Source: Diphasiastrum complanatum (lineage: Eukaryota; Streptophyta; Lycopodiopsida; Lycopodiales; Lycopodiaceae). Taken from it: a stretch of DNA of 64,000 bases. Location: assembly GCA_029204225.1 (NCBI GenBank), contig CM055096.1, forward strand, positions 40,357,215 through 40,421,214, given 5' to 3'. Below are positions 7,291 through 43,850 of this stretch, one piece after another. The position numbers and the translations under genes were made by a program. Position 1 is the first letter of the stretch; every line of letters starts with the position of its first letter. The notes below the pieces were generated by a model. The model was not told the origin of the DNA. It saw nothing but the letters and a program-made list of their open reading frames with translations, and ran no database searches.

Positions 7291-10200
7291 ATGGGATCAG
7301 TGGGAGCCTACCTTCTAGAAGCTAGTGAGAGGTTAAATTCTACCAATTATGCTATTTGGAAAGTGAGGATGGAGTCACTAATGGTGCTCCAGGATCTTTA
7401 TGAGTTTCTAATAGATGATGAAGATGAACCTCTAGGTGCACAGGAATTAGTGAGATACAAGAAGAGGTCTAGGCTTGCACTTCACTGTATTAAGATGAAT
7501 GTAAGCATTGATCTTTTAAGAGAAGTATCATCATGTAAGAGTGCTAAAGAGGCTTGGGAATCTTTAAAATCTATCCATGAGTCTAGTAACACTTCGAGGC
7601 TTCTCATGCTTAGGAATCAGATTCTACTAAGCATGAAGAGGAGTGATGAGAATGCACAAGATTATGTGCTAAGAATCAAGTCTCTTAATAGGGAGTTAGC
7701 TTCCATTGGAGAGAAGATTCAAGATAGTGAGCTTGTTCAGATTGTCCTAAATGGTCTAGGGAGTGGCTTTACAAATTTGGTCCAAAGCTTTGCAATCCAA
7801 GACACTTTGCCTACTATAGAAAAGCTACACAGTGTATTAGTAGCTAAAGAGTGTAGGATGTTGCGTACCAATGCAAGAATGAATGCTATTTCTCTGCAGG
7901 ATGGTGATGAGAAAGCTAATTTCTCATTCAAAAGCAAGAAGAAGACCAATGGCAAGAAGAAGCACTTCAAGGAGACCAAGGAGGAGGATGAGGCTTCAAG
8001 CTCAAAGGGCAAGATCAAAGACAAGTCCAAGTACAAATGTTTTTTCTGTGGAAAGAAAGGACATTTTGCATCAGAATGTCTCAAGAAGAAGAAGGCACAA
8101 GAGAGCAAACAAAGCAACATTGCACATCAGGAGGAAGAGGAGGATGAAGAGTCATCCTTGATGGTTTCCAACAAACCACCATCATCCAAGAGCAACACCA
8201 ATGATTCTTGGTGGATTGATAGTGGGGCAAGTTCCCACATGACATATCAAAAGGACATATTCTCCACCTTACTTTCTTACAATGACTTACATAGATCAAT
8301 CTATACTGCAAGTAGTCAAGAATGTAAGATAAGTGAAATAGGAACAATTCCCTTGTATGTGGGATCATCCAAAAGGATGAATCTAGATAATGTTCTTTAT
8401 GTTCCTAAGTTAACCAAGAATTTGCTTAGTGTTGGCCAGTTAATGGATAATGGCCTAGATGTACAATTTAAGCATGGAGTTTGTTCCATCCTTAGAAATG
8501 ATGAATGTATAGCCAAAGGCTTTAAGCAAGGTAGATTGTTTAAGCTTGATGCTAATATTGCAGTGGAGAGTGTTAACTTGGCAAAGGTGGAGCTATCAAA
8601 GGTGGAACTGTGGCACAAAAGGTTGGGCCACCCCAACTACAAAGCCATGGAATCTATGGCTACAAAGGAGCTTGCAGTTGGACTCCCCAAGCATTTGTCA
8701 AAGTGTGGGAAGAGATGTGAAGCATGCAGCCTCTCAAAGGCTCACAAGCTACCCTTCTCAAGATCTACATCAAGATCAAACTCCCCTCTTGAACTCATCC
8801 ATTCGGATGTTCATAGTTTTTCACATGAGTCTAATGGTGGTGCCAAGTACTATGTAATCTTCATTGATGACTATTCTAGATTTTGTTGGATGTACCTCTT
8901 GTCTAGCAAATCAATGGTGTTTGATTCTTTTGTAAAGTTCAAGACTTTGGTAGAAAATCAACTTAGTACCAAGATTAAGGTATTAAGGAGTGATAATGGA
9001 GGTGAATATGTCTCCAATAAGTTGATTGACTTTTGTATTTCTAATGGCATAAAGAGGGAGTTGTCATGTCCATACACCCCTCAACAAAATGGAGTGAGTG
9101 AGAGAAGAAATAGATCTCTTTGTGAGTGTGATAAGGCCTTAAGGCTAGATGCTTCTCTATCCAAACCATTTTGGGGTGAAGCAATAACTTGTGCTAACTA
9201 TTTGTGCAATAGATTGCCAAACCAAGCCATTGGAAGAATCACACCATTTGAAGCTCTATTTGGAGAGAAGCCCAATCTCAAAGATCTCAAAGTTTTTGGA
9301 TCCACTTGCTATGTACACCAATCCTTGGATAAGAGAAGGAAGGATGATGCAACATCCATCAAAGGCATCTTTGTGGGATATGGTGAGAATAGCAAAGGTT
9401 ATAGAGTCTTCAATCCCATCACTAGCAAGGTGATAGTGAGTAGGGATGTTATTTTTTATGGACATGCTTGTGATTTGGATGATAATGCTACTAATCATCT
9501 TGATGCCAAGGATCATGCTAGGATGGAGGAGGAGCTTCCAAGTGAAGAAGAACTTGAGGATCCACTTCAAGATGCAAGAACTCCAAGAACTCCAAGAAGA
9601 TCTACAAGGGCAAGATCCGAGCCATTGAGGCTCACCTATGATGGTCAAGGTGATCAAAGGGAAGGCTCATCATCTTTCACATCTTATACCTTTCTTACTT
9701 CAATGTTAGATGAGCCAACATGCTATGAAGATGCTTGTAAGTCTAAAAGTTGGATGGATGCTATGCAAGTAGAGTATGATGCTCTTATTGAGAATCATAC
9801 TTGGGATCTTGTGGATCTTCCTCAAGGGAAGAAACCTCTTGATTGCAAGTGGGTGTTTATATTGAAGTATAATAAAGATGGATCAATAAGCAAGAATAAA
9901 GCTAGGCTTGTTGCCAAAGGTTTTTTAACAAACCAAAGGCATTGACTATGATGAGACTTTTGCTCCTGTGGCTAAGCTTGTTACTATCAGGTTGATCATT
10001 AGTCTTGCTACAACCTTCAATTGGGAGCTATTCCAACTTGACTTCACAAATGCATTCCTCAATGGTTATTTGGAGGAAGAGATCTACATGAGGCAACACG
10101 AGGGCTTCATCAAGGCAAAGCATGAAGGAAAGGTGTGTTTTTTGAAGAAGAGCCTTTATGGGCTCAAGCAAGCACCTAGAGCATGGTACTCTAGGCTAAA

Positions 10201-12492: not shown

Positions 12493-14406
12493 ATGACAAA
12501 GCTTTATTTTCTTCATGTGGATCGGTCACCAGAATATGCTCCGCTCAGGACAAGAAATTCAAAGCAACCCAAATTGTCAACTTCTGATATGGTCCGATAC
12601 AGGGAGGAAAAGCTAAAGTATGTAGATTTATGGTCATCAGGAACATTGTATCCTATTGATCCATGTTCATTGCAACATCCAGATTTTCATTCGATGAGTC
12701 AGTTAATAATCTATATGTGTCATGGCCTTTTGGGTTACTGTGAGAATTTGATGCTCTATGGGAATGCACATTCAATGCAAAGAATACATTATTTGGAAGA
12801 GAAATCAAGGAAAATATTAAAGGACTGCGAAGAAAAATCTACAAAGATGAAAACTTGTTTGGATGAAAATGAGATGCTCAAGAAGGAGATCCAAAGGTTG
12901 AAATCTTCTTTGCATCATTATACAACTAGTAATGATGAGACAAAAACTGCATTTCAATCCATGCGTATCTCATATTTGTCTCTTGTTAAAGATATGGATG
13001 TGTTCAATAGAAAGGTCGGAAGCAACAAGAGGAAAAGACTGGTAAACAAAGATATATGTGATCTATCATCCAGAGGAGGTCATAGAAAAAGACAAATCCG
13101 TGCATTCAAGTAAGTTATAGCTTATTTGATATTGAATATTGTTTGAACTTTTTGATTCATTCATAATCACTAATTTTGTTATTTATTCATTTCAACTTCT
13201 GGTGATTTGCTTATTATATATTGCTGTGAATACTATGAGTGTCCTAATTCTACTGACATTTTCATGAACATTATGTTTGCAATGTAGATCAGCATTGGTT
13301 GTTGAAGACCATTTGGCCGATGAGATTTCAATTGGAAACTCACTAGGCTCTACCTTGACTTCTAAATCTATAAAATCAATGTTAAATAATAACAAAATGA
13401 AAAAGATTAAGGCTTCAGTTACTGATAGCATTATGGATGAAGTTGGAAAAATATTAGACACTACATTGCTTCAAGGGACATGTGACTTTTCTAGCAACAG
13501 TAGGGAAGCATATGGAACAATGTTTAAGATGATAAAGGAGGCATTTGCATAGGTAAATATTAAAAAGTTTCCAATCCCATGACCATTTCATCTTTAAAAA
13601 AAAAAGACATGTTAAACCAAGGTATGTAGACAATAGTTGGTAATCCAGCTCATATCAATGAAGTGTATTGCTGGAAAGGAGAAAGTCTAGCTTATAACAA
13701 TTCCAAGAATTTATTTATTGATATTAATCAGTTATTAACATTCATCATAAATTTTTACGGTATTACAAATGAGAATGTCAATAACAAGTTGATAGTTGTT
13801 CTCAAGTTAGATGGATCTGAAATTATAAAAGGACAAAAAATGGAAAGAGTCAGTCTCACGATCATGAATGGAACAAGACTCATAAGGCCTCAATTTCAGT
13901 GTTCAATCAGAAAATGATATCTGGTGGTTGGTAGCATTTCAAGTATAGTAGTTCTTTCGCATAATAAATAGGGATAATCATTTGAATATGGATTTCATTC
14001 GGGAAATCTTCTCTGTGTTAATATTATGAGGCTGATCACGTTTTTGTATTCTCTTATAGGTGATGAAAGAAGATCATGACATTCTCTCATGGATATTTAA
14101 TAGAACATCATATCCTGCCACCATAAAAAATCACATGGAGGGAGTTCCACTCAATATTCCTAGAATTGGCACTTTCAACATTGAATGGCATTTAGTAGAA
14201 GATCTGAAGACATTAAAATGTATGTTCAATATATCTCATGGCACTAACTCTAAACACCATTGTTTGTATTGCATGCCAAATAGCAAAAGACATGACAAGG
14301 AGTACGGGAATATCAAGAGATCGAGAAGATCCTAATTGGAAACCTGTACTACTGATTTCTCTACAAAATGTTCATATCTGTACATTGCATGCGGAGGTGC
14401 GTATTA

Positions 14407-14440
<34 letters not shown>

Positions 14441-14660
14441 TCACATCTTGTTTGCATGGAATTCCGAACCAGAGGCCTCTGCGAAAGAAGCTATTTCCAG
14501 ATTAGAGGATGTGTTGTCCAAAGCAGACTTACATAAAGGCCACATTAAAATAAAAAAAGATGACAAGCTATCAGGTAAAACAAGAAATATTCCATACAAG
14601 CCAAGCATTGGAGGATCTAAAGCTCGAAGATTTTTATCAAATTATTTTGGCAAACAATCC
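12493..14660 (+). pseudogene. 5' half of an unknown multi-exon transposase-like gene
   Basis: Four or five exon-like open stretches are joined by plausible introns. Exon 12493-13109 has donor GTAAGT; acceptor TAG is at 13285-13287; exon 13288-13552 is followed by GTAAAT; then 13637-about 13915, 14059-14397 (donor GTGCGT) and about 14445-14660. The first exon carries a Lys/Glu-rich coiled coil (residues about 95-150) and a basic end. Later exons read VVLKLDGSE, HDILSWIF, HMEGVPLN, FNISHGTNSKHHCLYC, VHICTLHAE and IPYKPSIGGSKARRFLSN. The spaced Asp, His and CxxC pattern recalls uncharacterised eukaryotic transposase-like proteins, but I cannot name the family. The second exon ends in an in-frame TAG and one exon needs a frameshift, so it is probably dead. 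The reading frame is cut near 14660. Confidence 0.5.
14409..14438. repeat. (AT)n microsatellite
   Basis: About 15 uninterrupted AT units inside the intron that starts with GTGCGT at about 14398. Confidence 0.95.
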
Positions 14661-15841
14661 AAGGTTCTTGCTGAGTCAGATTCTCCAGCATCTAACTCAG
14701 AGCTCGGAAAGATAGGGGGTCTCTTGGCCAGGATAACTCTAGGAGGAAGGGAAGCAGCTGGCCTTCGTGATCCAGCCTTCTTGTGGATTGGCTGCTTCCT
14801 CTTCCTCCTAGAGGTAGTCGGCAAGTCAGTTCTATCTAGAGGCAGGTCTCTAGAGGCACTGACATTATCAACATGCAGACCAGAATATCGGTTTCGAAGC
14901 CTTCTGAGAATGACGAAATCCTTTGGCATGATGGTGACACGCTTATCATGCACTACCAAAAGACAAGTATCCTCAAAAAACTGGGACAGAAGATCTTCTA
15001 CAACACCCTGTAAGGCCTGTATGGATGTCACGGCAAAATAAACATTTTGCCCAAGTGACAAAGTGACATTCCTCATAGATCGGCCGAAAGGAGCTCTTGG
15101 GATCAACAATTCAGTTGACATAATGAAACAAGCATCACCACCAAACTTTACCATGTATCCTTTCTCTATCATTTGACCAACACTTAACAAATTCCTTGAA
15201 AGTGAAGGAATGTAAAGAACACCATCAAGTCTTGCTTTCCTATTAGTAGAAAGACAAATAGGAATTGAACCAATACCTTCAATCACACACTCACCACCAT
15301 TGGCTATGTGAATTTCTTTCTTGGCTCCATCATAAGTGACCAAAGAAGTAAATAACTCCTTGTGACTAGTCATGTGTGAACTAGCTTTACTATCAATCCA
15401 CCATAAATCTTTGTCACCTTCACTTGATATTGGACTTGAAGAACACATCAAAAGAGAATCACCACCACCTAGATCCTCATCATTAGTAGTAAAGTTGATT
15501 TGCTTGCTATATTCATCTCTTTTCTTCTTCAAACATTCATTAGCAAAATGCCCTTTGATTCCACAAGAAAAGCATTTCAACTTAGACTTTTCTTTATTTT
15601 TTCCAAAAGAGGAAGTCTCACCTTGATCTTGTCCTTTTGACCACTTGCCTTTGCCTTTGCCCTTGAACTTGCCTTTGACGGACATAGCATCCTCTTCATA
15701 ATGAGATGTCGATGTAGATCCACCTCCTCTTGATTGAAGCCTATACTCCTCATTCATCAAGATCTCTTGCAAATCCACAATACTTGGCAAAGTCTTTTGA
15801 ATAGCAAAACTTTGAGCAAGATTAGCATGATCATCCAACAA
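14642..15841 (-). CDS. Copia gag-protease frame fused to a histone H3-like fold
   Basis: A 399-codon open frame. Residues 1-240 are Copia gag-protease: a basic GKFKGKGKGKWSKG stretch, a CFSCGIKGHFANEC knuckle at residues 90-103 and the protease site at 147-158, where the usual DSG is DSK. The rest of the protease domain ends at GGDACFI. From residue 242 the protein changes to a histone H3 fold without a gap (STELLI, APFGR, ALQ, FFEDT, KRVTIMPKD, RRLRNR) ending near 321. A 78-residue tail follows with a basic cluster SRRKRKQPIHKK, which could be a nuclear signal. Integrase, RT and RNase H are absent. Upstream gag continues to about 16085 but has an in-frame TGA near 15912. Whether the fused product is made is unknown. 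It could also be an accidental join of two decayed fragments. Confidence 0.75.
   Translation of the reverse strand: MLDDHANLAQSFAIQKTLPSIVDLQEILMNEEYRLQSRGGGSTSTSHYEEDAMSVKGKFKGKGKGKWSKGQDQGETSSFGKNKEKSKLKCFSCGIKGHFANECLKKKRDEYSKQINFTTNDEDLGGGDSLLMCSSSPISSEGDKDLWWIDSKASSHMTSHKELFTSLVTYDGAKKEIHIANGGECVIEGIGSIPICLSTNRKARLDGVLYIPSLSRNLLSVGQMIEKGYMVKFGGDACFIMSTELLIPRAPFGRSMRNVTLSLGQNVYFAVTSIQALQGVVEDLLSQFFEDTCLLVVHDKRVTIMPKDFVILRRLRNRYSGLHVDNVSASRDLPLDRTDLPTTSRRKRKQPIHKKAGSRRPAASLPPRVILAKRPPIFPSSELDAGESDSARTLDCLPK
14879..15121 (-). other. Histone H3-like fold domain
   Basis: Aligned by eye to canonical H3 from Ser57 to the C-terminus there is no gap, and roughly 34 of 77 positions are identical. 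The alpha-N/alpha-1 start STELLI, the alpha-2 pieces ALQ and FFEDT, loop-2/alpha-3 KRVTIMPKD and the final RR-x-R are kept. Lys115, Arg116, Thr118, Lys122 and Asp123 of H3 have counterparts; Cys110 is Leu. The H3 N-terminal tail is missing. Loop 1 has canonical H3 length, not the longer form typical of centromeric H3. Divergence is far greater than between normal plant H3 variants. Confidence 0.88.
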
Positions 15842-16085
15842 TCCATTAAGTATAACTTGAACAAGTTCTACCTCCTTAATGCTTTCATCAATACATGCTA
15901 ACTCATCATTGAATCATTTAACCCTCAAAACAAAAGCATGAGTACTCTCTTCCTTATTTTGCAAACTTTGAAAGATTTGCCTCCTAAGAGTAAGCACTCT
16001 TGATGTAGACTTGGATTCATAAAGCTTCTTCAAAGCTTCCCAAGCCTCCAAAGATGATGTGCACTTACCAATCTCTTTGAGAAGA
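15122..16085 (-). mobile_element. Copia gag-protease fragment without LTRs
   Basis: It aligns with gag of Copia-2 and Copia-3 from the segment encoding GKCTSSLEAWEALKKLYESK (near 16040) to the protease end at 15122. It carries one TGA stop near 15912 and no LTR on either side; similarity begins abruptly near 16085. Confidence 0.85.
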
Positions 16086-18949: not shown

Positions 18950-19133
18950 TGATGGATTTACTCCTTCCAGTCTCCTAAATCCCAATTTTAGTCTGCCTCC
19001 ATTCATGCTGTATATTTTCTAACGTTGTCACGTAGTCTGTATTTTTACACACAAATTTGCACAGACGAATAAAAGGCAAATGAATCGCAATATTGTGTTC
19101 TTACACAGGTCATGGTGACAAGCGAAAGGAGGA
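18950..19133 (+). repeat. 3' LTR of the old Copia, split by Copia-2
   Basis: It begins TGATGGATTTACTCC directly after the purine tract (18941-18949) and is interrupted by Copia-2 at the target GAGGA. Confidence 0.8.
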
Positions 19134-19787
19134 TGTGAAAAATACAGATCCTAAGTGGATCTAAACTCCAAGATCATTGGCTTGAATGCTTGCACTCCAA
19201 ACTACATAAGCTAGGAATTGGCAACACATTCTATGCTACCTAGAATGCAAAGAACTTGATCAAAAAGCATTTATCACAAATGGAAACTTCCATAAACATC
19301 AAGTGCGGCCCAAAATAGCATTATACAGTCCATAATACATCAGCCTACCACTTTTGGAAAGCACCTAAGATCATACACAATAGCTTGAAGACAATACACA
19401 CAACAATGCTCTCAATGGAGGAAGAAACAATGACAATGATCTATTGATCTCAATGAAGCATACAAAAGGTTTCTCCAACCTGTTCTCCACGAATTTCAGC
19501 CTAATATAGGTGAGAGAGATGAATCTCTCTCCTCTCTCTAGAACTTAGGACCCAATTTTAGGACACCAGTAACCTAAAATAGCCAATTTTGGCCTATATG
19601 TCCAAATAACATGATTTTAGTGTCATTTAGAAGGTCCCGAAGTTTGAGACTTCTTCAACATGAAATATATACTAGAATAAAAGTATCTAGGTCTCTTTCA
19701 CACGTGTGAAAGGTTAGATCCAAAACTATGTACAAAAATTGCCAATTTAGGCCTCAAACTAGCTAGGAAATGTTGACAATTTTCACA
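19134..19787 (-). repeat. Copia-2 3' LTR
   Basis: TG...CA ends, GAGGA outside, polypurine tract inside. Palindrome CACACGTGTG at 19699-19708. Confidence 0.94.
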
Positions 19788-19814
19788 CTCCCTCTTCAGC
19801 TTAACTTGCTAGTT

Positions 19815-22800
19815 TTACAACACTCTTTGCTCCAACCTAAGAATGATCTCCATCATGATGATAGATCTCTTTTCAAGTGTTCTAATGTGTACAATATGAA
19901 GTACAACATAATTGATATAGATAATAGTGCCCATATAGGATGCTTCACTATTTCTTACATCAATTTTACATAGAATGGTGAACAAGATACATGTAAAAGA
20001 ACATAGAATAACAATGAAAGGATTCCTCCATGTATCCACCTTTGAGTTCTCTGTAAAACAGCAGCAAACAAGTTGTAAGTGAAAGTAACCAACAGGTGTT
20101 TGCATGCCTCGTCCACATTCCACTATGCCCATAGTGAATGCACCATGTATCTCCATGAATGAACCTCCATCACCACCTTGCCTTTGTAGATCTCCAATCC
20201 ACGAAAGCCCTTGAGTGAATGAATGCCAAAATGATGTGTTCTCTGTTCCATTTGAATGAGCAAAACTTGAACTTGAAATACTTGAAGTATCTCCACAAGA
20301 TTTGCATATAACGCTTGATCCTACATTGTCAACAATTTGCCAATTTGCCAACACTAGGATGCTAGATCTTGAACTTTGCTCAAAAGTAAACATATTGACC
20401 ACTTCCATATCTTTTGAGATTTGAATGAATGCATGTACTTGATCATAAAAACCAGCAATGATAACTATTCCATCTCCAAGATCCAAAAGATGCAAAACTG
20501 TGGAACTAGTTTCATTGAATTTTGACAATTCCAACACATTGACATGACAATGTTCATACATGAGATTAAACAAGTAAGGTAGAGTAAAAGGACACTTCCT
20601 TGCTGCTCCAAGAACCTTACTTGAACCTTCAAGGACCTGTAAAAACATATCCAAGATGCTTTGCCCATGTGGCTCCCCTTTCATGCTTTTGACTAGCTTC
20701 CAATTGCTACTTGCCTCTTGGTGTTGATGAAGCAATTCAAGATCAACATCTTGATCTTCCAATAAAACATCAAGGACTTTGCATTTATAAACATCTTCAG
20801 ATCTGAACCTCTGAAGATACTCCCTCTCAAACACATGATTAACATCCCACAAGATCTCATCATTGCTTGATTTCAACCTTTCACTATAGTTAGTGAAAAC
20901 AATGTCACCATCATAAACCAAAAGATAGATTTCTACACTTCTATCCAACATGAAGTAGAGTAGATGAAGTTGAGTATCAAACCTAATAAAACCAGCCCAT
21001 TTGAGCTCAAACCAAACCTCAACGAGATCTTCCTTGCCTTGAAGAAATTGCCACTTGAGTTGCTCCATGTAAATATCTTCTTCAAGATCACCATTCAAGA
21101 AGGCATTAGTAACATCCATTTGCCACATATCCCAATCATAAAGAGTTGCAAGAGAGATTAGGATTCGAATAGTTACCATTTTTGCCACGGGTGCAAAGGT
21201 CTCATCATAGTCAATACCATATTCTTGAGCATACCCCTTTGCCACCAACCTTGCCTTGTACTTGTTGATTGATCCATCTTGATTTGTCTTGATCTTGAAG
21301 ATCCACTTACAACCAATTGCCTTCTTGTCCTTTGGAAGCTTTACCAACTTCCATGTGTTGCTTTTGATGAGTGCTTGATGCTCATGATCCATGGCTTGGA
21401 TCCATTCCTTCTTTTGAATTGCTTCACCTACACAAGTTGGTTCATCAAAAGAGGTAAGAAAAGCAAAGTTAGAGTTGTCCACCACTTGCTTTCCTTTTTC
21501 ATCATAGGTTAGCCTTGATGGCTTAGCCCTTTGCCTTTGAGTCTTCCTTGAAGTTTGCTTTGGAGTGGCATCTCCATCTTCATCCAAGACATCTTGCACA
21601 TCATGATGATTAGTAGGCACATCAACATCAACATCAACAACATTGGAAACATTCTCTTCATGAAAGATGACATCCCTACTTATGACAACTTTCTTTGTAG
21701 AAGGAATGTACACTTTGTAAGCCTTGCTTACTTCACTATAGCCAACAAACACACCCTTCTTTGATGAAGGATCTTCTTTAGTTCTATCATCAAGTGTGAT
21801 ATTGACAAAACATGTACATCCAAAGATCCTACAATGCTTGACACTCGGCCTTCTACCATAAAGAACCTCATGAGGAGTTTTACCATCCAAGGAAGCACTT
21901 GTCCATCTATTACATAGATAGTTAGCACATGCTAAAGCTTCCCCCCAAAAAGACTTAGCAAGATTAGCATGTAGTCTCATTGCCTTGGCACATTCACAAA
22001 GGGTTCTATTCTTCCTCTCGGCCACTCCATTCTGTTGTGGAGTCCTAGGACTAGACATCTCCCTCTTAATCCCATGTGCTATACAAAAGTCTTTGAACCT
22101 ATTTGAGGTGTATTCCCCTCCATTATCAGATCTTAAGCATTTGATCTTTGTATTGAATTGGTTTTCCATTTCATTCTTGAACTTGACAAATGCAGCAAAC
22201 ACTTCATCCTTACTTTTAAGAAGATAGATCCAAGTATACCTACTAAAGTCATCAATGAAAGTTGCATACATCTTTGCCCCACCATTGCTAGTTGTACTAG
22301 AAGAATGAATATCAGAATGCACAAGTTGAAAAGCTTCTTTAGATCTAGAAGTAGATCTAGAATAAGCAAGTCTATGAGATTTGGACAAGGCACAATGTTC
22401 ACAAACACTATTGTTTGCAACAAGACTTTTAGGGAGACCAAGAACAAGCTCTTTCTTTGCCATTACCTCCAAAGATTTGAAGTTGGGATGGCCCAACCTC
22501 TTGTGCCAGACTTCTTGGTTTGTCAATTGCTCCCTAGCCATACATCCTTCATGATTAGAGATCACACATGCATCAAGCTTGAAAAGTTTACCATGCCTCC
22601 TACCTTGAGCAATCAAGGATCCACATTTACTTATCAAACATGCATCTCCAATGAACTCCACATCAAGTCCTTTGTCAATCATTTGACTTACACTAAGCAA
22701 ATTCTTAGTGATTGAAGGAATGTACAAAACATTTTCAAGATTTGCTTTCCTATTTGTTGAAAGGGAAATAGGAATAGTGCCTATGCCTTTGATGTCACAT

Positions 22801-23828
22801 TGACCATCATTTGCAGTGTAGATGATGTTACCTTCTCCCTCATAAGACAATAAGGATGTAAAGTATTCCTTATGTCTTGTCATGTGAGATGAGGCTCCAC
22901 TATCAATCCACCAAGGATCATTATCATCTATGTTGGCTAACAAACTTGAAGTCATAACAAGTGATTCACATGTGTTATGTTCTTCCTCATCTATTGTAAG
23001 ATTTCCTTGCCTCTCTCCTTGCTCTCTTTTCTTCTTATAACATTCATTTGCAAAATGACCTTTTATCCCACAATAAAAGCACTTGAACTTTGACTTATTG
23101 TTCTTAGTAGAAGAGGAAGAGGAAGAGTGATCATCATGATCAAAGTTACCACCTTTGGACCATTTCCCTTTGCCTTTATCTTTGCCCTTGAATTTGCCTT
23201 TTGTGAAGAAAGCCTCTTCACCTCCACCTTGCAAGGATGCACCATCAAGCTTTGATTGCAACCTATGTTCTTCAGCCAATAAGATTTCTTGCAAGTCAAC
23301 CACACTTGGCAAGACTCTTTGAATGGCAAAACTTTGCACAAGGTTAGCATGTTCATTTAGCAAACCATTCAACATAACTTGGACTATTTCACCATCTTTT
23401 ATGTTCTCATCAATGCATGCTAAATCATCACTTAGAGACTTAACTCTCAAGATAAATGCATGAGCACTTTCACCCTCTCTTTGCCTACTGGAAAATATTT
23501 GTCTCCTTAGGGTCAATACCCTAGATGTGGACTTTGATTCAAAGAGCTTCTTTAAGGCATTCCATGCCTCACTTGCACTTTGACACTTTCCAACTTCCTT
23601 GAGAAGTTCATTTGTAACATTCATTTTAATGATATGAAGAGCCCTTTTGGCCTTCTTATCAAACCTTTGTTGCTCTTGAAGTGTGAGAGGTCTCTCTTCA
23701 ATTTCTGCAACTATGTCCATGAGTTCATTCAACTCAAGTAAGGACTCCATCCTCACTTTCCAAGTAGAGTAGTTTGATGAACTCAACCTTTCACTAGACT
23801 CTAGCATGATCCCACCATTGGAAGCCAT
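19815..23828 (-). CDS. Copia-2 gag-pol with RT-RNase H replaced by an unrelated tail
   Basis: One uninterrupted 1337-codon frame. Gag 1-200; CFYCGIKGHFANEC knuckle near 250-263; protease WWIDSGASSHMT at 306-317; integrase HHCC (WHKRLGHPNF, CEHCALSKSH) at 441-485 and the D,D,E core (HSDIHSS 504; SDNGGEY 567; PQQNGVAERKNR 597); integrase C-terminus to about 730; RT fingers (GCKWIFKIKTNQDGSINK; DVTNAFLNGDLEEDIYMEQ) to residue 923. From 924 the sequence leaves the Copia consensus. A weak echo of RT may persist (EIYLLVYDGDIVFTNYSERL) with YVDD read as YDGD, which would be inactive. Residues 1000-1337 match nothing I know. They include CKSCGDTSS, GDGGSFMEIHG and a Cys-rich hydrophobic stretch at 1252-1290. 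The gag, protease and integrase could be active; cDNA synthesis would need another element. Confidence 0.9.
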   Translation of the reverse strand: MASNGGIMLESSERLSSSNYSTWKVRMESLLELNELMDIVAEIEERPLTLQEQQRFDKKAKRALHIIKMNVTNELLKEVGKCQSASEAWNALKKLFESKSTSRVLTLRRQIFSSRQREGESAHAFILRVKSLSDDLACIDENIKDGEIVQVMLNGLLNEHANLVQSFAIQRVLPSVVDLQEILLAEEHRLQSKLDGASLQGGGEEAFFTKGKFKGKDKGKGKWSKGGNFDHDDHSSSSSSTKNNKSKFKCFYCGIKGHFANECYKKKREQGERQGNLTIDEEEHNTCESLVMTSSLLANIDDNDPWWIDSGASSHMTRHKEYFTSLLSYEGEGNIIYTANDGQCDIKGIGTIPISLSTNRKANLENVLYIPSITKNLLSVSQMIDKGLDVEFIGDACLISKCGSLIAQGRRHGKLFKLDACVISNHEGCMAREQLTNQEVWHKRLGHPNFKSLEVMAKKELVLGLPKSLVANNSVCEHCALSKSHRLAYSRSTSRSKEAFQLVHSDIHSSSTTSNGGAKMYATFIDDFSRYTWIYLLKSKDEVFAAFVKFKNEMENQFNTKIKCLRSDNGGEYTSNRFKDFCIAHGIKREMSSPRTPQQNGVAERKNRTLCECAKAMRLHANLAKSFWGEALACANYLCNRWTSASLDGKTPHEVLYGRRPSVKHCRIFGCTCFVNITLDDRTKEDPSSKKGVFVGYSEVSKAYKVYIPSTKKVVISRDVIFHEENVSNVVDVDVDVPTNHHDVQDVLDEDGDATPKQTSRKTQRQRAKPSRLTYDEKGKQVVDNSNFAFLTSFDEPTCVGEAIQKKEWIQAMDHEHQALIKSNTWKLVKLPKDKKAIGCKWIFKIKTNQDGSINKYKARLVAKGYAQEYGIDYDETFAPVAKMVTIRILISLATLYDWDMWQMDVTNAFLNGDLEEDIYMEQLKWQFLQGKEDLVEVWFELKWAGFIRFDTQLHLLYFMLDRSVEIYLLVYDGDIVFTNYSERLKSSNDEILWDVNHVFEREYLQRFRSEDVYKCKVLDVLLEDQDVDLELLHQHQEASSNWKLVKSMKGEPHGQSILDMFLQVLEGSSKVLGAARKCPFTLPYLFNLMYEHCHVNVLELSKFNETSSTVLHLLDLGDGIVIIAGFYDQVHAFIQISKDMEVVNMFTFEQSSRSSILVLANWQIVDNVGSSVICKSCGDTSSISSSSFAHSNGTENTSFWHSFTQGLSWIGDLQRQGGDGGSFMEIHGAFTMGIVECGRGMQTPVGYFHLQLVCCCFTENSKVDTWRNPFIVILCSFTCILFTILCKIDVRNSEASYMGTIIYINYVVLHIVHIRTLEKRSIIMMEIILRLEQRVL

Positions 23829-24988
23829 GATTCTAATGTTTCTTCAACTTTTAGGTTCTGTCCTAAAGCACTTAGCACTCACTTTTCTCTCAACAAATGA
23901 TAGATAAAGAGGTCTATGAAGATTTAGGACCCTAAAACACTTCGATCTTGAACCTAGATGGTTTCCAAGCATAGAAAGGAAGATTGAAACACATGCAACA
24001 CTTTGCACACACTAAGAATGGATTACAAAATCAAACCAACCTGAACACACTCTTGCTTAAGCTCTCAAACTTTCCAGCAAGTGACCAAATCAAGTTATGG
24101 TGTGAAGAGTTACTTGCATTCTTAGAAAATACCCAAAACTAGGATGCCAAGATTACATAGTAATGAACAAACTTGATCAACATATGATCAACACACTAAG
24201 ATATTGATTCAACCTGTAAAACCACATGTAAACCACACTTCTAAAAGTTTATAAACTCCAGCAAGTGATAAATACAAGATTTAGAGGTGAATGAATGAGC
24301 ACACTTAGTGAATCACAAGACTAGCTTCACTATCTTGTCAAATCTTGGTGTTTAGATGTAGATCTAAGATCACTTCACATGAGAATGTTCCTCAACCTGT
24401 TAAGAATCTGAAAACACACTTGCATAATGGTTAACACCTTCCAGCAAATGCTCCAATCAAATTACATAAGGAGAGTTACTTACATGCTCAACAAAGTACA
24501 CCAAAATTTATGCCAAAATTGATGACAATCTTTACAATATGCTCTTCACAATGGAGCTTACAATATGTTCACCCAAAAAAGGGGATCTTTCATCCAAATG
24601 GGAGCTTTGCTCAGCCTTTAGGAGAATTACAACTCACTCAAAAGATCATTTTTCATCCACTTAAGGAGAAGTTTCATCCACTTAAGGAGAGTGTTCATCC
24701 AAGAATGGAGATTGTCAACAATAGGATTGAAAAGAACATTGTTAGTATTGAATATGCACAAGCCTCACAATAACAAATGATTAGGTGTTATGATCTGATC
24801 CAAAATAGTTTCTTTTCAGCCTCTGATCTTCAATAGACCTGAAATATGCTTTTGATCCACAAGTTCAACTCACAAAACAAAGGTTAGTAAGATTTGATCA
24901 ACAAAGCAATGCAAAATCATGCTAGAACTTGATCAAACATCCAAATATCACCAAAAATGGAATACTTACTGTAAATAGAAGCCAACCA
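23829..24988 (-). other. Copia-2 5' leader
   Basis: About 1.16 kb between primer site and gag start with no gag-like frame. It contains a cluster of short repeats (24575-24720) described separately. The length is normal for a Copia leader carrying packaging signals. Confidence 0.75.
24575..24720. repeat. Short imperfect repeats in the Copia-2 leader
   Basis: The unit TTTCATCCACTTAAGGAGA occurs almost twice in a row (24650-24690), with shorter relatives (CATCCAAATGGGAG, CATCCAAGAATGGAG) on either side. On the plus strand a frame repeats F-H-P-x-K/G, but that strand is antisense to the element, so the repeat more likely works in RNA or is a replication artefact. Confidence 0.6.
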
Positions 24989-25000
24989 GCTCTGATACCA
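24989..25000 (-). other. Copia-2 primer binding site
   Basis: The minus strand reads TGGTATCAGAGC immediately inside the 5' LTR and is complementary to initiator-Met tRNA. Confidence 0.92.
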
Positions 25001-25654
25001 TGTGAAAAATACAGATCCTAAGTGGATCTAAACTCCAAGATCATTGGCTTGAATGCTTGCACTCCAAACTACATAAGCTAGGAATTGGCAACACATTCTA
25101 TGCTACCTAGAATGCAAAGAACTTGATCAAAAAGCATTTATCACAAATGGAAACTTCCATAAACATCAAGTGCGGCCCAAAATAGCATTATACAGTCCAT
25201 AATACATCAGCCTACCACTTTTGGAAAGCACCTAAGATCATACACAATAGCTTGAAGACAATACACACAACAATGCTCTCAATGGAGGAAGAAACAATGA
25301 CAATGATCTATTGATCTCAATGAAGCATACAAAAGGTTTCTCCAACCTGTTCTCCACGAATTTCAGCCTAATATAGGTGAGAGAGATGACTCTCTCTCCT
25401 CTCTCTAGAACTTAGGACCCAATTTTAGGACACCAGTAACCTAAAATAGCCAATTTTGGCCTATATGTCCAAATAACATGATTTTAGTGTCATTTAGAAG
25501 GTCCCGAAGTTTGAGACTTCTTCAACATGAAATATATACTAGAATAAAAGTATCTAGGTCTCTTTCACACGTGTGAAAGGTTAGATCCAAAACTATGTAC
25601 AAAAATTGCCAATTTAGGCCTCAAACTAGCTAGGAAATGTTGACAATTTTCACA
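25001..25654 (-). repeat. Copia-2 5' LTR
   Basis: Near-identical partner of 19134-19787. Palindrome CACACGTGTG at 25566-25575. Followed by the GAGGA duplication. Confidence 0.94.
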
Positions 25655-37989: not shown

Positions 37990-38642
37990 TGTGAAAAATT
38001 GTCAACTAGTAGTATTTTCCTAACTTGAGATTTTGTAGGCCTATGGCCAAATAAAAGTTAGAGATAGGTTCATACATGTATGTAGAGGCCCAAAGTATGT
38101 GTACACTACTTTTGAGGTCACATTAATTAGAGGAGGTCGAGTGTGGAGCTCTTCTATTGGCTCATAATTTGGTGCATTCCTATTTGACCAAATTTCTAGG
38201 TATATGGGTGAATCCTATTGGACCCCAATTTTAGCCTATCATAAGACAAGTGGCCAAGAGGCACTATGGCTGCTGTAAATAGCCATCTCCACGAGTATGT
38301 ACACATCTCATTTTCATTCTATTGAATGAATGTTATGCTCTTTGAAGGTCCATCTTCTTCTCTCTCACTTTTTTGTTCATATCTTGCATTCTAGCCACTA
38401 GAATTGTGATTTCTTTGTTGCTATGGCTTCACACGTGTGAAATGCAGGTTGTAGGCTCTGAAGTACGGACAGGGACAGCAAGTTTCTGTTTGTGGAAGCT
38501 TATGATCAGATTTTGATGTTTAGTTGATGTTTAGTATGCTTAACATCACAATTTCTATCATTTTTTCAATCTAGATGTGCATAACTTCCATGGCCAAGAT
38601 CTTTATGAAACTTTAGCATCTTTTGGATCTGAGTTTTTCACA
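37990..38642 (+). repeat. Copia-3 5' LTR
   Basis: TGTGAAAAATTG to TTTTTCACA. Palindrome CACACGTGTG at 38430-38439. Confidence 0.95.
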
Positions 38643-38654
38643 TGGTATCAGAGC
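38643..38654 (+). other. Copia-3 primer binding site
   Basis: TGGTATCAGAGC immediately follows the 5' LTR and matches initiator-Met tRNA. Confidence 0.95.
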
Positions 38655-39251
38655 ATTAGGCGGCCAAATGTGCAGGTTTTGCCAGATTTAGAAGAGATTT
38701 GTGGGCGAGTTTGCTTTTGTAGCATTCCAATCAAGTTTCTAGCTAAAAATCTTGTTGATTTATGTGTAGAAATTGGATCTTTGTGATCAAAACATCATTT
38801 GTATGCATTTCAATTGAAGTAGGGCGAATTCCCTCTGTACTTATCAGAATAAGGAGACAAAAATTGTTTTGGAAAGAGGGAGATGCAAGATCCAACAAGA
38901 TCCTATTAGTTTTCCATTCTAGCATATAGTTTTTTGATTCAATTTCTTGCTTCTTCATGTCAAAAACTTCAAAATTGATGTAACCCTCTGATTTTCAGTT
39001 TGCTGAATGATTCAAGAGTGTATTTCAATCTTAGGAGTGAGGGAAAAGCAAGTATATTGAGGTTTGGTCTTGGTTTGATCAAGAAATCATAAAACTAGTG
39101 GCTAAAATTAAGGAAAAAGTGAGGAAAAGAGAGAAAAAGTAAGGTTTTAGGTTCCAAATCTTTGTGATTTCTTCTTGTGTTTCATTTGTTGATTCAAGAG
39201 AGTGCTTAGTGCATTGGAACAAGTCAAAGATCAGAGATCAATCATTGCAAC
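38655..39251 (+). other. Copia-3 5' leader
   Basis: About 600 bp without a gag-like frame, leading to the gag ATG at 39252 (context CAACATGGC). Confidence 0.8.
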
Positions 39252-42200
39252 ATGGCTACAAATGGAGGCTACATGTTGGAAAGCAATGATAGGCTTACCT
39301 CCCTCAACTATTCTACTTGGAAAGTAAGGATGGAGTCTTTGCTTGAGATGAATGAGTTGATGGATATTGTTGTAGGTGTGGAGGAGAGACCTTTGGCACC
39401 TCAAGAACAATTGAGGTATGACAAGAGGGCAAAGAAAGCCCTTCACATGATCAAGATGAATGTGACAAATGAGCTTATCAAAGAGGTTGGTAAGTGCACA
39501 TCATCTAGTGAAGCTTGGGAAGCCTTGAAGAAGGTTTATGAATCCAAGTCTACTTCTAGAGTGTTGACTTTAAGAAGGCAAATCTTTTCTTGTATGCAAA
39601 AGAAGAGTGAGAATGGACATGCTTTTGTTTTGAGAGTTAAAGCATTGAATGATGAGTTAGCATGCATTAATGATGGCATAAATAATGAGGAGCTTGTTCA
39701 AGTGATTCTCAATGGCTTGTTGGATGATCATGCTAATCTTGTTCAAAGTTATGCTATCCAAAAATGTTTACCAAGTGTTGGAGACTTGCAAGAGGTCTTG
39801 TTGGCTGAAGAATTCAGGTTGCAAGCAAGAGTGGGAGCATCTTCTACATCTCAAGGAGGAGAAGAGGAGGCAATGTTCTCTAAAGGCAAGTTCAAGGGCA
39901 AAGGTAAAAGCAATTGGTCTAAAGGGCAAGACCAAGGTGAGCACTCTACTTTTGGCAAAAAGAAGGATAGATCTAAGCTAAAATGTTTCTATTGTGGAGT
40001 CAAAGGGCATTTTGCTAGTGATTGTTTTAAGAAAAAGAGGGATCAAGGGGAAAAGCAAACCAATCTAACTATTGATGAGGGTGGGGATGAGCTTCTTTCA
40101 AATGATGCTTTTGTTATGTCATCTTGCTTGTTGGCTAATCATGGAGACATTGATCCTTGGTGGATTGATAGTGGAGCCACTTCTCATATGACATATCATA
40201 AAGAGTATTTTTCATCTTTAATGGCATTTGATGGTGATAGGAAGGTAATCTATACCGCAAATGATGGTGAGTGTGCAATCAAGGGGATTGGCACAATTCC
40301 TATTTCACTTTCTACAAATAGGAATATAGAATTGAAAGATGTTTTGCTCATTCCATCCATTACCAAGAACTTACTTAGTGTAAGCCAAATGCTTGACAAA
40401 GGATTCAAAGTTGAGTTTGATGGTGATGCTTGCTTGATCAAAAAGGGGTGTAGTATCATTGCAAAAGGGAAAAGGCAAGGGAAATTGTTCAAGCTTGATG
40501 CATGTGTTGTTGCTAACCAAGTTGGATGCATGGCAAATGAACAAATGTCAATTCAAGAGGTATGGCATAAAAGGATGGGACATCTCAACTACAAGGCCTT
40601 GGAGGTAATAGCCAAAAAGGAGGTAGTAAGGGGACTTCCCAAGTCTCTTACTTGCTTGAATCATGTTTGTGAAGAATGTGCTTTGTCTAAATCACATAGA
40701 TTGCCATATACTAGATCTATATCTAGATCTAAGATGCCTTTTTCTCTCTTGCATTCGGATATTCATGGTGTTACTACAATTAGCAATGGAGGTGCTAAGA
40801 TGTATGTAACTTTCATTGATGATTTTAGTAGATTTTGTTGGGTTTATCTACTAAAGAGCAAGGATGAGGTGTTTGATGTGTTTGTCAAGTTCAAAGTTGC
40901 TATTGAGACTCAATTTACAACCAAAATCAAATGCTTGAGGAGCGACAATGGTGGTGAATACATTTCTAACAAATTCAAAGCCTTTTGCGATGAGCATGGG
41001 ATCAAGAGGGAGTACACATGTCCAAGAACACCACAACAAAATGGAGTGGCCGAGAGGAAGAATAGAACCTTGTGTGAGAGTGCAAAGGCAATGAGATTGA
41101 ATGCTAATCTTCCTAAACCTTTTTGGAGTGATGCTTTGTTGTGTGCAAATTTCCTATGCAATAGATGGCCAAGTGTTGTATTGGAAGGAAAAACCCCTTT
41201 TGAAGCTTTGTTTGGTACGAAGCCTAATGTCAAGTTTCTAAGAACTTTTGGATGCATTTGCTACTTCAACATTACTCTTGATGATAGAACTAAGGAGGAT
41301 CCATCTTCAAGAAAGGGCATTTTTGTTGGTTATAGTGAAGTAAGCAAAGCATATAGGATTTATGTTCCTTCAATCAAGAAAGTGTTCACAAGTAGGGATG
41401 TCATTTTTGATGAAGGTAACATTCCAAAAGTTGTTTCAAGTGATGATGGTGTTGTTGCAACTAATGTGCTTGATGACAATGGAGTTGATGACACATTGGA
41501 TGTGGATGTTGAAGAAGCCTCTTCAAGTCAAATTCCAAGGAGAACTCCAAGGCATAAAGTGAAACCCTCAAGGCTCACTTATGATGGCAAAGGTAAGCAA
41601 GTGGTGGATGGATCCAACTATGCTTTCCTAACTTCTTTTGATGTACCTTCATGTGTAGATGAAGCAAGGCAAGAAGAGGAATGGATCCAAGCAATGGATC
41701 TTGAGTTTGAAGCACTTATGAAGAACAACACATGGAGATTGGTGGAGCTTCCAAAGGGCAAAAGTGCAATTGGATGCAAATGGATCTTCAAGGTAAAGAC
41801 AAATCAAGATGGATCTATCAACAAGTTGAAGGCAAGGTTGGTGGCTAAAGGTTATGCTCAAGAGCATGGCATTGACTATGAGGAAACCTTTGCACCCGTG
41901 GCAAAGATGGTGAGCATAAGAGTAATCATTTCCCTTGCAACTCTTTATGGATGGGATCTTTGGCAATTAGACATTTCTAATGCTTTCTTGAATGGTGATC
42001 TTGAAGAGGAAGTCTACATGGAGCAACCCGAGAGCTATGTTTCTCATAGCAAGCCTAATCATGTGTGTTTTCTACAAAAAAGTTTGTATGGTCTTAAGCA
42101 AGCACCAAGGAGTTGGTATGCTAGGCTTAACTCTTTTCTACTTTCTCAAAACTTCACTATGAGTGAGTATGATCATTCATTTTACTTTAGAATTAGTGCT

Positions 42201-43202
42201 AATGATGTTACAATCCTTCTAATTTATGTGGATGACATTATTTTAAGTGGAGGGAACAAGGAAGATATAGAAGATATCAAGAAAGCACTAAAAAAGGAAT
42301 TTGAAGTGCATGATCTTGGTCTTTTGAGCTATATCTTAGGAATAGAAGTAATTAGAACTTCTCAAATCACTTTTATTTCACAAGAGAAGTATGCTATTTC
42401 TATTCTCAATAGATTTCATATGGTAGATGCAAATCCTATTGATACACCTATGGAATCACATGTAAAGCTAACTATAAGAGGTAATGAAAGATCCTTCGAG
42501 GACATTACTCTCTATAGGAAGCTAATAGGTTCTCTTATATATCTAACCATCACAAGACCTGATTTATCTTATTGTGTTGGTAGATTAAGCCAATTCATGC
42601 AAGATCCTAGCATAGAACATTGGAAACTAGGAAAGAGGATCTTGAGATACATCTCGGGAACAAAAGATTTTGGCATTGTTTATAGAGGCTCATCACCTAA
42701 CTTATTTGGTTTTTCAGATTCAGATTTTGCAGGAGACCTTATGGATAGAAAATCCATAAATGCACATGCTATTTTCATAGGTGATGGAGCTATCTCATGG
42801 ATGTCGAAGAAACAAGCAACTATATCACTTTCTTCTAGTGAGGCCGAGTACAAAGCTTTGACATCATGCACAAAGGAGATGGTGTGGATCAAGAGGATGA
42901 TTATGGAGCTTCATTTGCTGGATTTTTCAGAGAGTCCAATCATCTTTTGTGACAACCTTTCAGCCCAAAGTCTAGCAAGCAATCCGGTTTTCCATGCAAG
43001 GAGCAAACATATCGAGGTGGCTTACCATTTTGTGAGAGAACAAGTGTTGGCAAAAGAGATCAAGCTTGAACATGTCCCATCAAAGGAATGTGTGGCTGAT
43101 ATCTTTACCAAAGCATTGGGAAAGGACTTATTTTTCAAGCATAGAACAAGTCTTGGTGTACTTTCTAAATCTATGCTAAAACTAGTTGAAGAGGGAGTGT
43201 GA
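39252..43202 (+). CDS. Copia-3 gag-pol polyprotein
   Basis: 1316 codons without a stop, the normal length for a plant Copia. Gag 1-240; zinc knuckle CFYCGVKGHFASDC at 245-258; protease WWIDSGATSHMT at 303-314; integrase HHCC (WHKRMGHLNY; CEECALSKSH) and D,D,E core (HSDIHG; LRSDNGGEY; PQQNGVAERKNR) at about 435-610; integrase end GIFVGYSEVSKAYRIY; RT from GCKWIFKVKTNQDG with the catalytic YVDD at 992 (LLIYVDDIILSGG); RNase H SDSDFAGD near 1155, SSSEAEYKAL and CDNLSAQSLASNPVFHARSK. All catalytic residues I can check are in place. The TGA stop lies 2 bases into the 3' LTR, so the last codons overlap the polypurine tract. Gag is close to that of Copia-2, making this a candidate helper. Confidence 0.97.
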   Translation: MATNGGYMLESNDRLTSLNYSTWKVRMESLLEMNELMDIVVGVEERPLAPQEQLRYDKRAKKALHMIKMNVTNELIKEVGKCTSSSEAWEALKKVYESKSTSRVLTLRRQIFSCMQKKSENGHAFVLRVKALNDELACINDGINNEELVQVILNGLLDDHANLVQSYAIQKCLPSVGDLQEVLLAEEFRLQARVGASSTSQGGEEEAMFSKGKFKGKGKSNWSKGQDQGEHSTFGKKKDRSKLKCFYCGVKGHFASDCFKKKRDQGEKQTNLTIDEGGDELLSNDAFVMSSCLLANHGDIDPWWIDSGATSHMTYHKEYFSSLMAFDGDRKVIYTANDGECAIKGIGTIPISLSTNRNIELKDVLLIPSITKNLLSVSQMLDKGFKVEFDGDACLIKKGCSIIAKGKRQGKLFKLDACVVANQVGCMANEQMSIQEVWHKRMGHLNYKALEVIAKKEVVRGLPKSLTCLNHVCEECALSKSHRLPYTRSISRSKMPFSLLHSDIHGVTTISNGGAKMYVTFIDDFSRFCWVYLLKSKDEVFDVFVKFKVAIETQFTTKIKCLRSDNGGEYISNKFKAFCDEHGIKREYTCPRTPQQNGVAERKNRTLCESAKAMRLNANLPKPFWSDALLCANFLCNRWPSVVLEGKTPFEALFGTKPNVKFLRTFGCICYFNITLDDRTKEDPSSRKGIFVGYSEVSKAYRIYVPSIKKVFTSRDVIFDEGNIPKVVSSDDGVVATNVLDDNGVDDTLDVDVEEASSSQIPRRTPRHKVKPSRLTYDGKGKQVVDGSNYAFLTSFDVPSCVDEARQEEEWIQAMDLEFEALMKNNTWRLVELPKGKSAIGCKWIFKVKTNQDGSINKLKARLVAKGYAQEHGIDYEETFAPVAKMVSIRVIISLATLYGWDLWQLDISNAFLNGDLEEEVYMEQPESYVSHSKPNHVCFLQKSLYGLKQAPRSWYARLNSFLLSQNFTMSEYDHSFYFRISANDVTILLIYVDDIILSGGNKEDIEDIKKALKKEFEVHDLGLLSYILGIEVIRTSQITFISQEKYAISILNRFHMVDANPIDTPMESHVKLTIRGNERSFEDITLYRKLIGSLIYLTITRPDLSYCVGRLSQFMQDPSIEHWKLGKRILRYISGTKDFGIVYRGSSPNLFGFSDSDFAGDLMDRKSINAHAIFIGDGAISWMSKKQATISLSSSEAEYKALTSCTKEMVWIKRMIMELHLLDFSESPIIFCDNLSAQSLASNPVFHARSKHIEVAYHFVREQVLAKEIKLEHVPSKECVADIFTKALGKDLFFKHRTSLGVLSKSMLKLVEEGV
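43188..43197 (+). other. Copia-3 polypurine tract
   Basis: GAAGAGGGAG abuts the 3' LTR. The same tract is used by Copia-0 and Copia-2. Confidence 0.9.
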
Positions 43203-43850
43203 AAAATTGTCAACTAGTAGTATTTTCCTAACTTGAGATTTTGTAGGCCTATGGCCAAATAAAAGTTAGAGATAGGTTCATACATGTATGTAGAGGCCCA
43301 AAGTATGTGTACACTACTTTTGAGGTCACATTAATTAGAGGAGGTCGAGTGTGGAGCTCTTCTATTGGCTCATAATTTGGTGCATTCCTATTTGACCAAA
43401 TTTCTAGGTATATGGGTGAATCCTATTGGACCCCAATTTTAGCCTATCATAAGACAAGTGGCCAAGAGGCACTATGGCTGCTGTAAATAGCCATCTCCAC
43501 GAGTATGTACACATCTCATTTTCATTCTATTGAATGAATGTTATGCTCTTTGAAGGTCCATCTTCTTCTCTCTCACTTTTTTGTTCATATCTTGCATTCT
43601 AGCCACTAGAATTGTGATTTCTTTGTTGCTATGGCTCCACACGTGTGAAATGCAGGTTGTAGGCTCTGAAGTACGGACAGGGACAGCAAGTTTCTGTTTG
43701 TGGAAGCTTATGATCAGATTTTGATGTTTAGTTGATGTTTAGTATGCTTAACATCACAATTTCTATCATTTTTTCAATCTAGATGTGCATAACTTCCATG
43801 GCCAAGATCTTTATGAAACTTTAGCATCTTTTGGATCTGAGTTTTTCACA
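43198..43850 (+). repeat. Copia-3 3' LTR
   Basis: Partner of 37990-38642. Palindrome CACACGTGTG at 43638-43647. Confidence 0.95.

Follow-up and report, generated by a model that had tools for sequence, protein, structure and literature searches.

In the clubmoss Diphasiastrum complanatum, an open frame that joins a Copia gag-protease to a histone H3 fold is probably best explained in two layers: the frame itself arose by accident, and its histone part is a fragment of a dispersed repeat whose H3-like gene apparently stayed under selection as the copies multiplied. The frame comprises 399 codons on the minus strand (14642-15841) of the window, i.e., the whole 64-kb stretch of DNA analysed here (C5:40357215-40421214), and was compared with 1.74 Gb of genome sequence. 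We confirmed the original prediction that the Copia frame passes without a stop into the H3 fold: Pfam analysis of the 399-codon product detected zf-CCHC (residues 89-103), Pol_BBD, the Copia pol beta-barrel (residues 147-229, E 4.5e-23), and Histone (PF00125; residues 241-316, E 9.3e-17, 61.9 bits against a cut-off of 26.4). A search of solved structures was led by H3 chains, with H3.1t as the top match (56 bits), and the H3-type match occurred only once within the window. Canonical H3 aligned from Ser57 to Arg131 (58-132 in the alternative numbering) with 34/75 identical residues and no gaps, in agreement with the predicted gapless alignment from Ser57 at ~44% identity. With canonical H3 as query, the same genome contains 13 full-length places that are 99-100% identical to plant H3, together with one decayed copy and ten exon-like pieces at 81-95%. 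Judged by these profile and alignment scores, the H3 similarity of the frame exceeds chance. The fragment retains His113, Lys115, Arg116, Thr118, Asp123, Arg128, and Arg129, and has lost Arg63 and Arg83. The predicted structure of the window fragment alone had a mean pLDDT of 44.6 and was not used as evidence.

Read against related copies elsewhere in the genome, the frame is a mosaic of a Copia fragment, a fragment of the H3-carrying repeat, and the end of another repeat, termed segment A (Table 1). The TTG at which it begins lies within gag and is not a genuine start codon; upstream of it the Copia reading continues, interrupted by the in-frame TGA ahead of the 399-codon frame. The protease motif is DSKA, compared with DSGA in the other Copia elements of the window (one DSGAT), and GC content is 0.44-0.51 across the H3 piece and about 0.33-0.37 outside it. 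At the DNA level, the H3-like fragment matches two copies of the repeat, L082 and the longer copy L081, at 88% and 89%, respectively (460 columns; BLAST, 14661-15118), and its basic tail is 70% identical over 82 residues to the D. complanatum protein P0002 (99 residues). The final 8 or 9 codons of the frame consist of antisense segment A plus the 3-base filler; segment A is also present in L082, where it precedes the H3 gene by 3 kb.

Table 1. Components of the fused frame and its surroundings (positions within the window)
Feature	Position	Strand	Basis
H3-like repeat fragment, 448 bases	14671..15118	-	joints read against L082
H3 fold, Ser57 to Arg131	14894..15118	-	PF00125, 61.9 bits; 34/75 identical to H3
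Basic tail of H3-like protein	14671..14893	-	similarity to P0002 and genome repeat copies
2-base filler, Copia/H3 repeat joint	15119..15120	.	compared with Copia L003, L005 and H3-repeat L082
3-base filler, H3 repeat/segment A joint	14668..14670	.	compared with L082
Copia gag-protease fragment, both ends cut, TGA at 15914-15916, DSKA	15121..16084	-	family comparison
Segment A (another repeat)	13875..14667	+	89% to L082 3672-4439; no Pfam match

Some further features of the window were recorded. Segment A and the ORFs preceding it (12493-14667, plus strand) are pieces of a repeat gene that seems to contain introns and a CxxC-like motif and that matched no Pfam family, and a 15-fold AT microsatellite lies inside the segment A region (14409-14438). 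A young Copia insertion (19133-25654, minus strand; LTRs 99.7% alike over 375 bases) carries a 1,337-codon frame in which the reverse-transcriptase match ends at profile position 101/244 and the final ~410 residues have no Pfam match, and another Copia (37990-43497, plus strand) has a 1,316-codon frame and identical 300-base LTR stretches. Three PHD fingers (61126-62043, minus strand) are probably a piece of a host gene.

To place the fusion in its genomic context, we compared the 399-residue product with the genome and scored the best 104 of 113,263 first-look candidates. The H3 part was covered in 2/104 Copia-type matches, namely, the window and its duplicate; the remaining 102 stopped by residue 256. 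The second fusion copy lies on the same contig, 1.37 Mb off, and is 98.5% identical across all 4,197 bases compared; since this identity reaches both ends of the compared stretch, a larger segment must have been duplicated. A second genomic copy joining Copia to H3, for which the original prediction had called, therefore exists, but as part of a larger duplicated stretch and not as a mobile Copia. Between the two fused 399-codon frames, we counted 9 nonsynonymous and 2 synonymous changes, which gives no sign of constraint. The Copia piece itself aligned without gaps to 18/18 family members compared (95.7-96.4%), and several members of this family have 1,203-codon open frames; relative to its own family, the fragment shows 24 nonsynonymous, 14 synonymous, and 2 stop-involving changes, a comparison that supersedes our earlier one with the other Copia elements of the window (N/S 82/36 against 104/113). 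Among 60 loci (L021-L080), Copia gag of this family was found near H3 in the window and its duplicate only, and we found no LTR-bounded Copia unit carrying the foreign gene in several copies, there being one duplicated site with Copia cut at both ends.

The joints bear on how the frame arose. At the first, Copia ends and, after 2 bases, the H3 repeat begins with the codon for Ser57. At the other joint, 3 bases separate the end of the H3 repeat from segment A in antisense orientation. The reported frame is an accidental joining of two broken DNA pieces, not a Copia-borne histone, and in their sequence the junctions look like end-joining scars. In the mechanism we propose, a ~960-base Copia fragment and the H3-repeat fragment would have been joined beside a third repeat during end-joining of a chromosome break, the joined pieces would have agreed in frame by chance, and the patch would later have been duplicated along with its surroundings. 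It is not unlikely for two open pieces to be joined in the same reading frame. End-joining repair can capture filler DNA, and the site resembles such repair in its short, unrelated repeat pieces and its 2- and 3-base fillers; the one unusual feature is that the frame happens to be open. As the origin of the fusion, we rejected a template switch in reverse transcription, given the fillers at both joints and the antisense orientation of the third partner, segment A.

Besides the 98% duplicate, the nearest relatives of the window H3 piece are members of a dispersed repeat, at 73-83% over H3 and tail, and not the ordinary host H3 genes that the original prediction had named as an alternative source. 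A genome search with a 158-residue H3-plus-tail query gave nearly full-length matches in 150/150 scored places (73-100% identity; best 150 of 6,619 first-look candidates), and copies were found on 23 of the 24 largest contigs. More specifically, L081 has a MARTK start; 44 residues precede its Ser57, and after the fold and the basic tail the frame runs on for about 170 residues. Its Pfam Histone match covers nearly the whole profile (83.8 bits), its top PDB relatives, like those of the window fragment, are H3, and its N-tail differs from H3 beyond ARTK. The repeat is thus predicted to encode a gene of ~370 codons with an ARTK-type N-tail, an H3 fold, a basic tail, and a C-part without known relatives. 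Most copies are broken: the 369-residue L081 ORF gave 111 scored places (113 rows) of 10,303 first-look candidates, and stops were present in 102/113 rows, the 11 stop-free rows including L081 itself and a 99% copy. Decay stops in these copies were TAG (217), TGA (52), and TAA (37), and the TAG excess would fit C-to-T decay at CAG in methylated DNA.

The unit common to L081 and L082+L083 spans 5.9 kb, with a gap in L081; the repeat is at least 5.9 kb long. Its copies terminate at varied places, two copies that we read (12.9 kb and 10 kb) showed neither an LTR nor a terminal inverted repeat, and no mobility enzyme was matched by Pfam in the scanned ORFs of the unit. As none of these was found, we infer mobility from copy number, and a dispersed high copy number, as in transposable elements, is what the repeat displays. 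A separate ORF of L081 (613-1194, plus strand) has no Pfam match; from its DIPYG motif, this ORF may be a piece of a methyltransferase.

The canonical H3 query additionally revealed >120 H3-like places among the matches listed (44-57% identity), most of them stop-free, with open frames of 92-440 codons; in many the frame has 200-440 codons. On contigs C3 and C8, 0/21 of the 44-57% places coincided (by eye) with scored H3-repeat places, and further H3-like subfamilies seem to exist in D. complanatum. In a set of 5.8 billion proteins, the search yielded a single hit among 48 candidates, a tail-only D. complanatum protein; restricting the length to 220-698 residues gave no hit among 301 candidates, and a 97-residue H3 query gave no candidate. 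No histone H3 appeared among the hits of these searches, and they are uninformative on H3 relatives.

A fixed divergent neighbour accompanies the H3-like gene. An ORF on the opposite strand of L082 (5590-6162, minus strand) had matches in 150/150 scored places (best 150 of 7,125 first-look candidates), about two thirds of them stop-free (by eye) and with frames of up to 526 codons. When 273 H3 places were used, 43 of the 150 partner places had an H3 place within 6 kb (0.29 expected under random shifts), and 41 of these 43 pairs were divergently oriented, 1.1-2.9 kb apart. The partner matched no Pfam family above cut-off and no solved structure.

To assess selection on the H3-like gene, we compared 37 distinct copies of the repeat (mean pairwise identity 0.878). 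Over 201 codons, variants present in a single copy had an N/S matching what the mutation spectrum of the flanks predicts (ratio 0.99, P=0.94), and nonsynonymous changes were depleted among variants common to at least three copies (ratio 0.56, P=0.0002). In the main tree (32 copies of 36 aligned, 370 codons), N/S was 196/165 = 1.19 on internal branches versus 923/396 = 2.33 on terminal branches (P=3.8e-8). The same difference was detected for the fold (0.59 internal versus 1.67 terminal, P=0.0005), the N-tail (1.03 versus 2.40, P=0.007), and residues 286-370 (1.00 versus 2.46, P=0.0015); it was not significant for residues 120-200 (P=0.21) and 201-285 (P=0.09). The flanks, read in three frames, showed no difference (2.26-2.75 internal versus 2.15-2.68 terminal, P 0.06 to 1), and a tree built on another reference (34 copies) gave N/S of 1.02 internal versus 2.01 terminal (P=2.6e-5). 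Since internal N/S lies below terminal N/S and the flanks are level, we take the protein to have been under selection while the repeat spread. Picking loci for their protein similarity, as was done here, lowers N. Two parts outside the query, the N-tail and residues 286-370, are nevertheless significant, which makes it unlikely that the protein-based choice is the whole cause.

In addition, the ATG was retained in 33/33 copies spanning the start. Decay of individual copies is advanced: 4/21 gapless copies are open over 201 codons, 16/32 carry deletions not divisible by three, and 4/32 have no in-frame stop. Speaking against selection, counts by codon position alone gave no significant bias in any 300-base block. 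Constraint on internal branches followed by terminal decay, the coding pattern of a transposable element, is found in the H3 repeat; its protein was apparently under purifying selection during copy spread, with near-neutral decay after insertion. In a sliding N/S scan of L082, 6150-6374 (frame 2, with 4 stops) also reached P<0.01, as did 8175-8399 (frame 1); the latter signal may stem from the C-part, if an indel in L082 has moved it out of frame.

How does this gene relate to known H3 variants? PMC4357034 defines a plant H3-like class of HTR genes outside H3.1, H3.3, and CenH3, with an absent or degenerate N-terminal part and deviations at positions 31, 41, 87, and 90. In the window fragment, T87 and Q90 deviate from H3.1/H3.3, and positions 31 and 41 fall in the changed tail of the longer copy. 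The H3-like gene thus resembles plant H3-like histones, as that text describes them, in its H3 fold, altered N-terminal part, and deviating residues 87 and 90, but differs in its hundreds of dispersed copies within a repeat and in its long basic tail and C-part. Regarding centromeric histones, the longer loop 1 of CENH3/CENP-A is absent, the fragment aligning gaplessly to H3 but needing a 2-residue gap against both CENP-A and Arabidopsis CENH3; in the PDB comparison, the longer copy scored nearly equally with H3 (75.8 bits) and CENP-A (74.2 bits). The LLIP, KDF, and RRL-like states presumably recall CENH3 motifs. Like CENH3, this is an H3-like protein with a variable N-tail; unlike CENH3, it lacks the loop-1 insertion. 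Capture of genes by plant retroelements, e.g., maize Bs1, is reviewed in PMC13317346, the main text of which does not mention histones. The arrangement here resembles such capture, as presented there, in that a host-type coding sequence lies inside a repeat, and differs from it in that the carrier is not Copia and the coding part was constrained during spread. Caulimovirid relics in lycophytes are treated in PMC13308828, where the words 'Diphasiastrum' and 'histone' are absent from the main text. In the open-licence literature, judged by titles and the openings of abstracts, we found no report of a mobile element encoding an H3.

These results allow other explanations to be weighed. That Copia captured an H3-like gene within its gag-pol frame, as the retroelement-borne histone of the original prediction would imply, is very improbable; the in-frame open fusion does occur at two places, but these are one duplicated site among the best 104 Copia matches, the Copia is truncated, contains a stop, and has a changed protease motif, fillers occupy both joints, and no such Copia lies near H3 elsewhere among the 60 loci. 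What stands of that claim is the repeat-borne H3 fold, since the data suggest a dispersed, selected repeat; Copia as its carrier does not. Scarcely credible is the view that the window fragment arose when an ordinary host H3 gene decayed into a pseudogene. Its 44-45% identity and truncated start would suit decay, but its relatives are members of a repeat family and possess an N-tail and C-part of their own. When neutral decay of H3 to 34/75 identity was simulated 2,000 times per setting, the frame remained open in 11.0% and 7.7% of runs, and with 0.1 indel per substitution no run remained open without an indel. Given the 88-89% DNA match to the repeat, the pseudogene reading is refuted for the fragment. 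Thus, from the proposal of an accidental fusion with a diverged H3 pseudogene, the accidental joining was upheld and the ordinary host pseudogene was not.

An unlikely but weightier alternative is an amplified host H3-like family, in which one or a few functional host loci, themselves selected, gave rise to many passive copies through an unrelated amplifier or by hitch-hiking. An evolving source gene shedding copies would also yield selection on internal branches, and the variable copy ends agree with this, as does the result that neither defined ends nor a mobility gene was found; on the other hand, at least 5.9 kb including noncoding DNA was amplified with a fixed, high-copy divergent partner, and copies are present on nearly all large contigs. 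It is improbable, though less so than capture by Copia, that the repeat goes back to a DNA virus that integrated and introduced an H3-like histone. Histones are encoded by some giant viruses, and divergent genes without a known family alongside a histone, in old dispersed copies, would suit such an origin; against it, Pfam revealed no viral hallmark in the scanned ORFs, and peptide patterns searched in viral contigs matched 16 stretches, 0 of which encoded a relative (records of this genome were possibly left out). The two-layer explanation, i.e., an accidental frame and a repeat-borne H3-like gene selected during spread, accordingly remains the one we consider probable.

The pattern of this gene would be that of one on which the repeat, or a small number of source copies, depended. 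In the mechanism we consider most likely, the protein would pair with host H4 through its retained H3 fold; so paired, it would enter or mark chromatin, and chromatin entry would aid retention, targeting, or shielding of the element. From the sequence, we infer that the repeat may be mobile, that its protein may be produced, and that it may pair with H4. The broader proposal falls a little short of being probable: a mobile element of a class not reported before, having spread to hundreds of copies or more, would encode its own H3 variant and a divergent partner, with the histone kept functional and the element building or entering chromatin by means of it.

By itself, the Copia fusion is of little consequence. 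Few proteins are as conserved as histone H3, and marks on H3 police mobile elements; if a repeat brings along an H3 of its own and keeps it intact, it would have a direct way of escaping or rewriting control by H3 marks. The repeat copies would also form a natural set of many H3 variants for asking which parts of H3 can vary, and counts of H3-like genes in clubmoss genomes may include repeat-borne genes.
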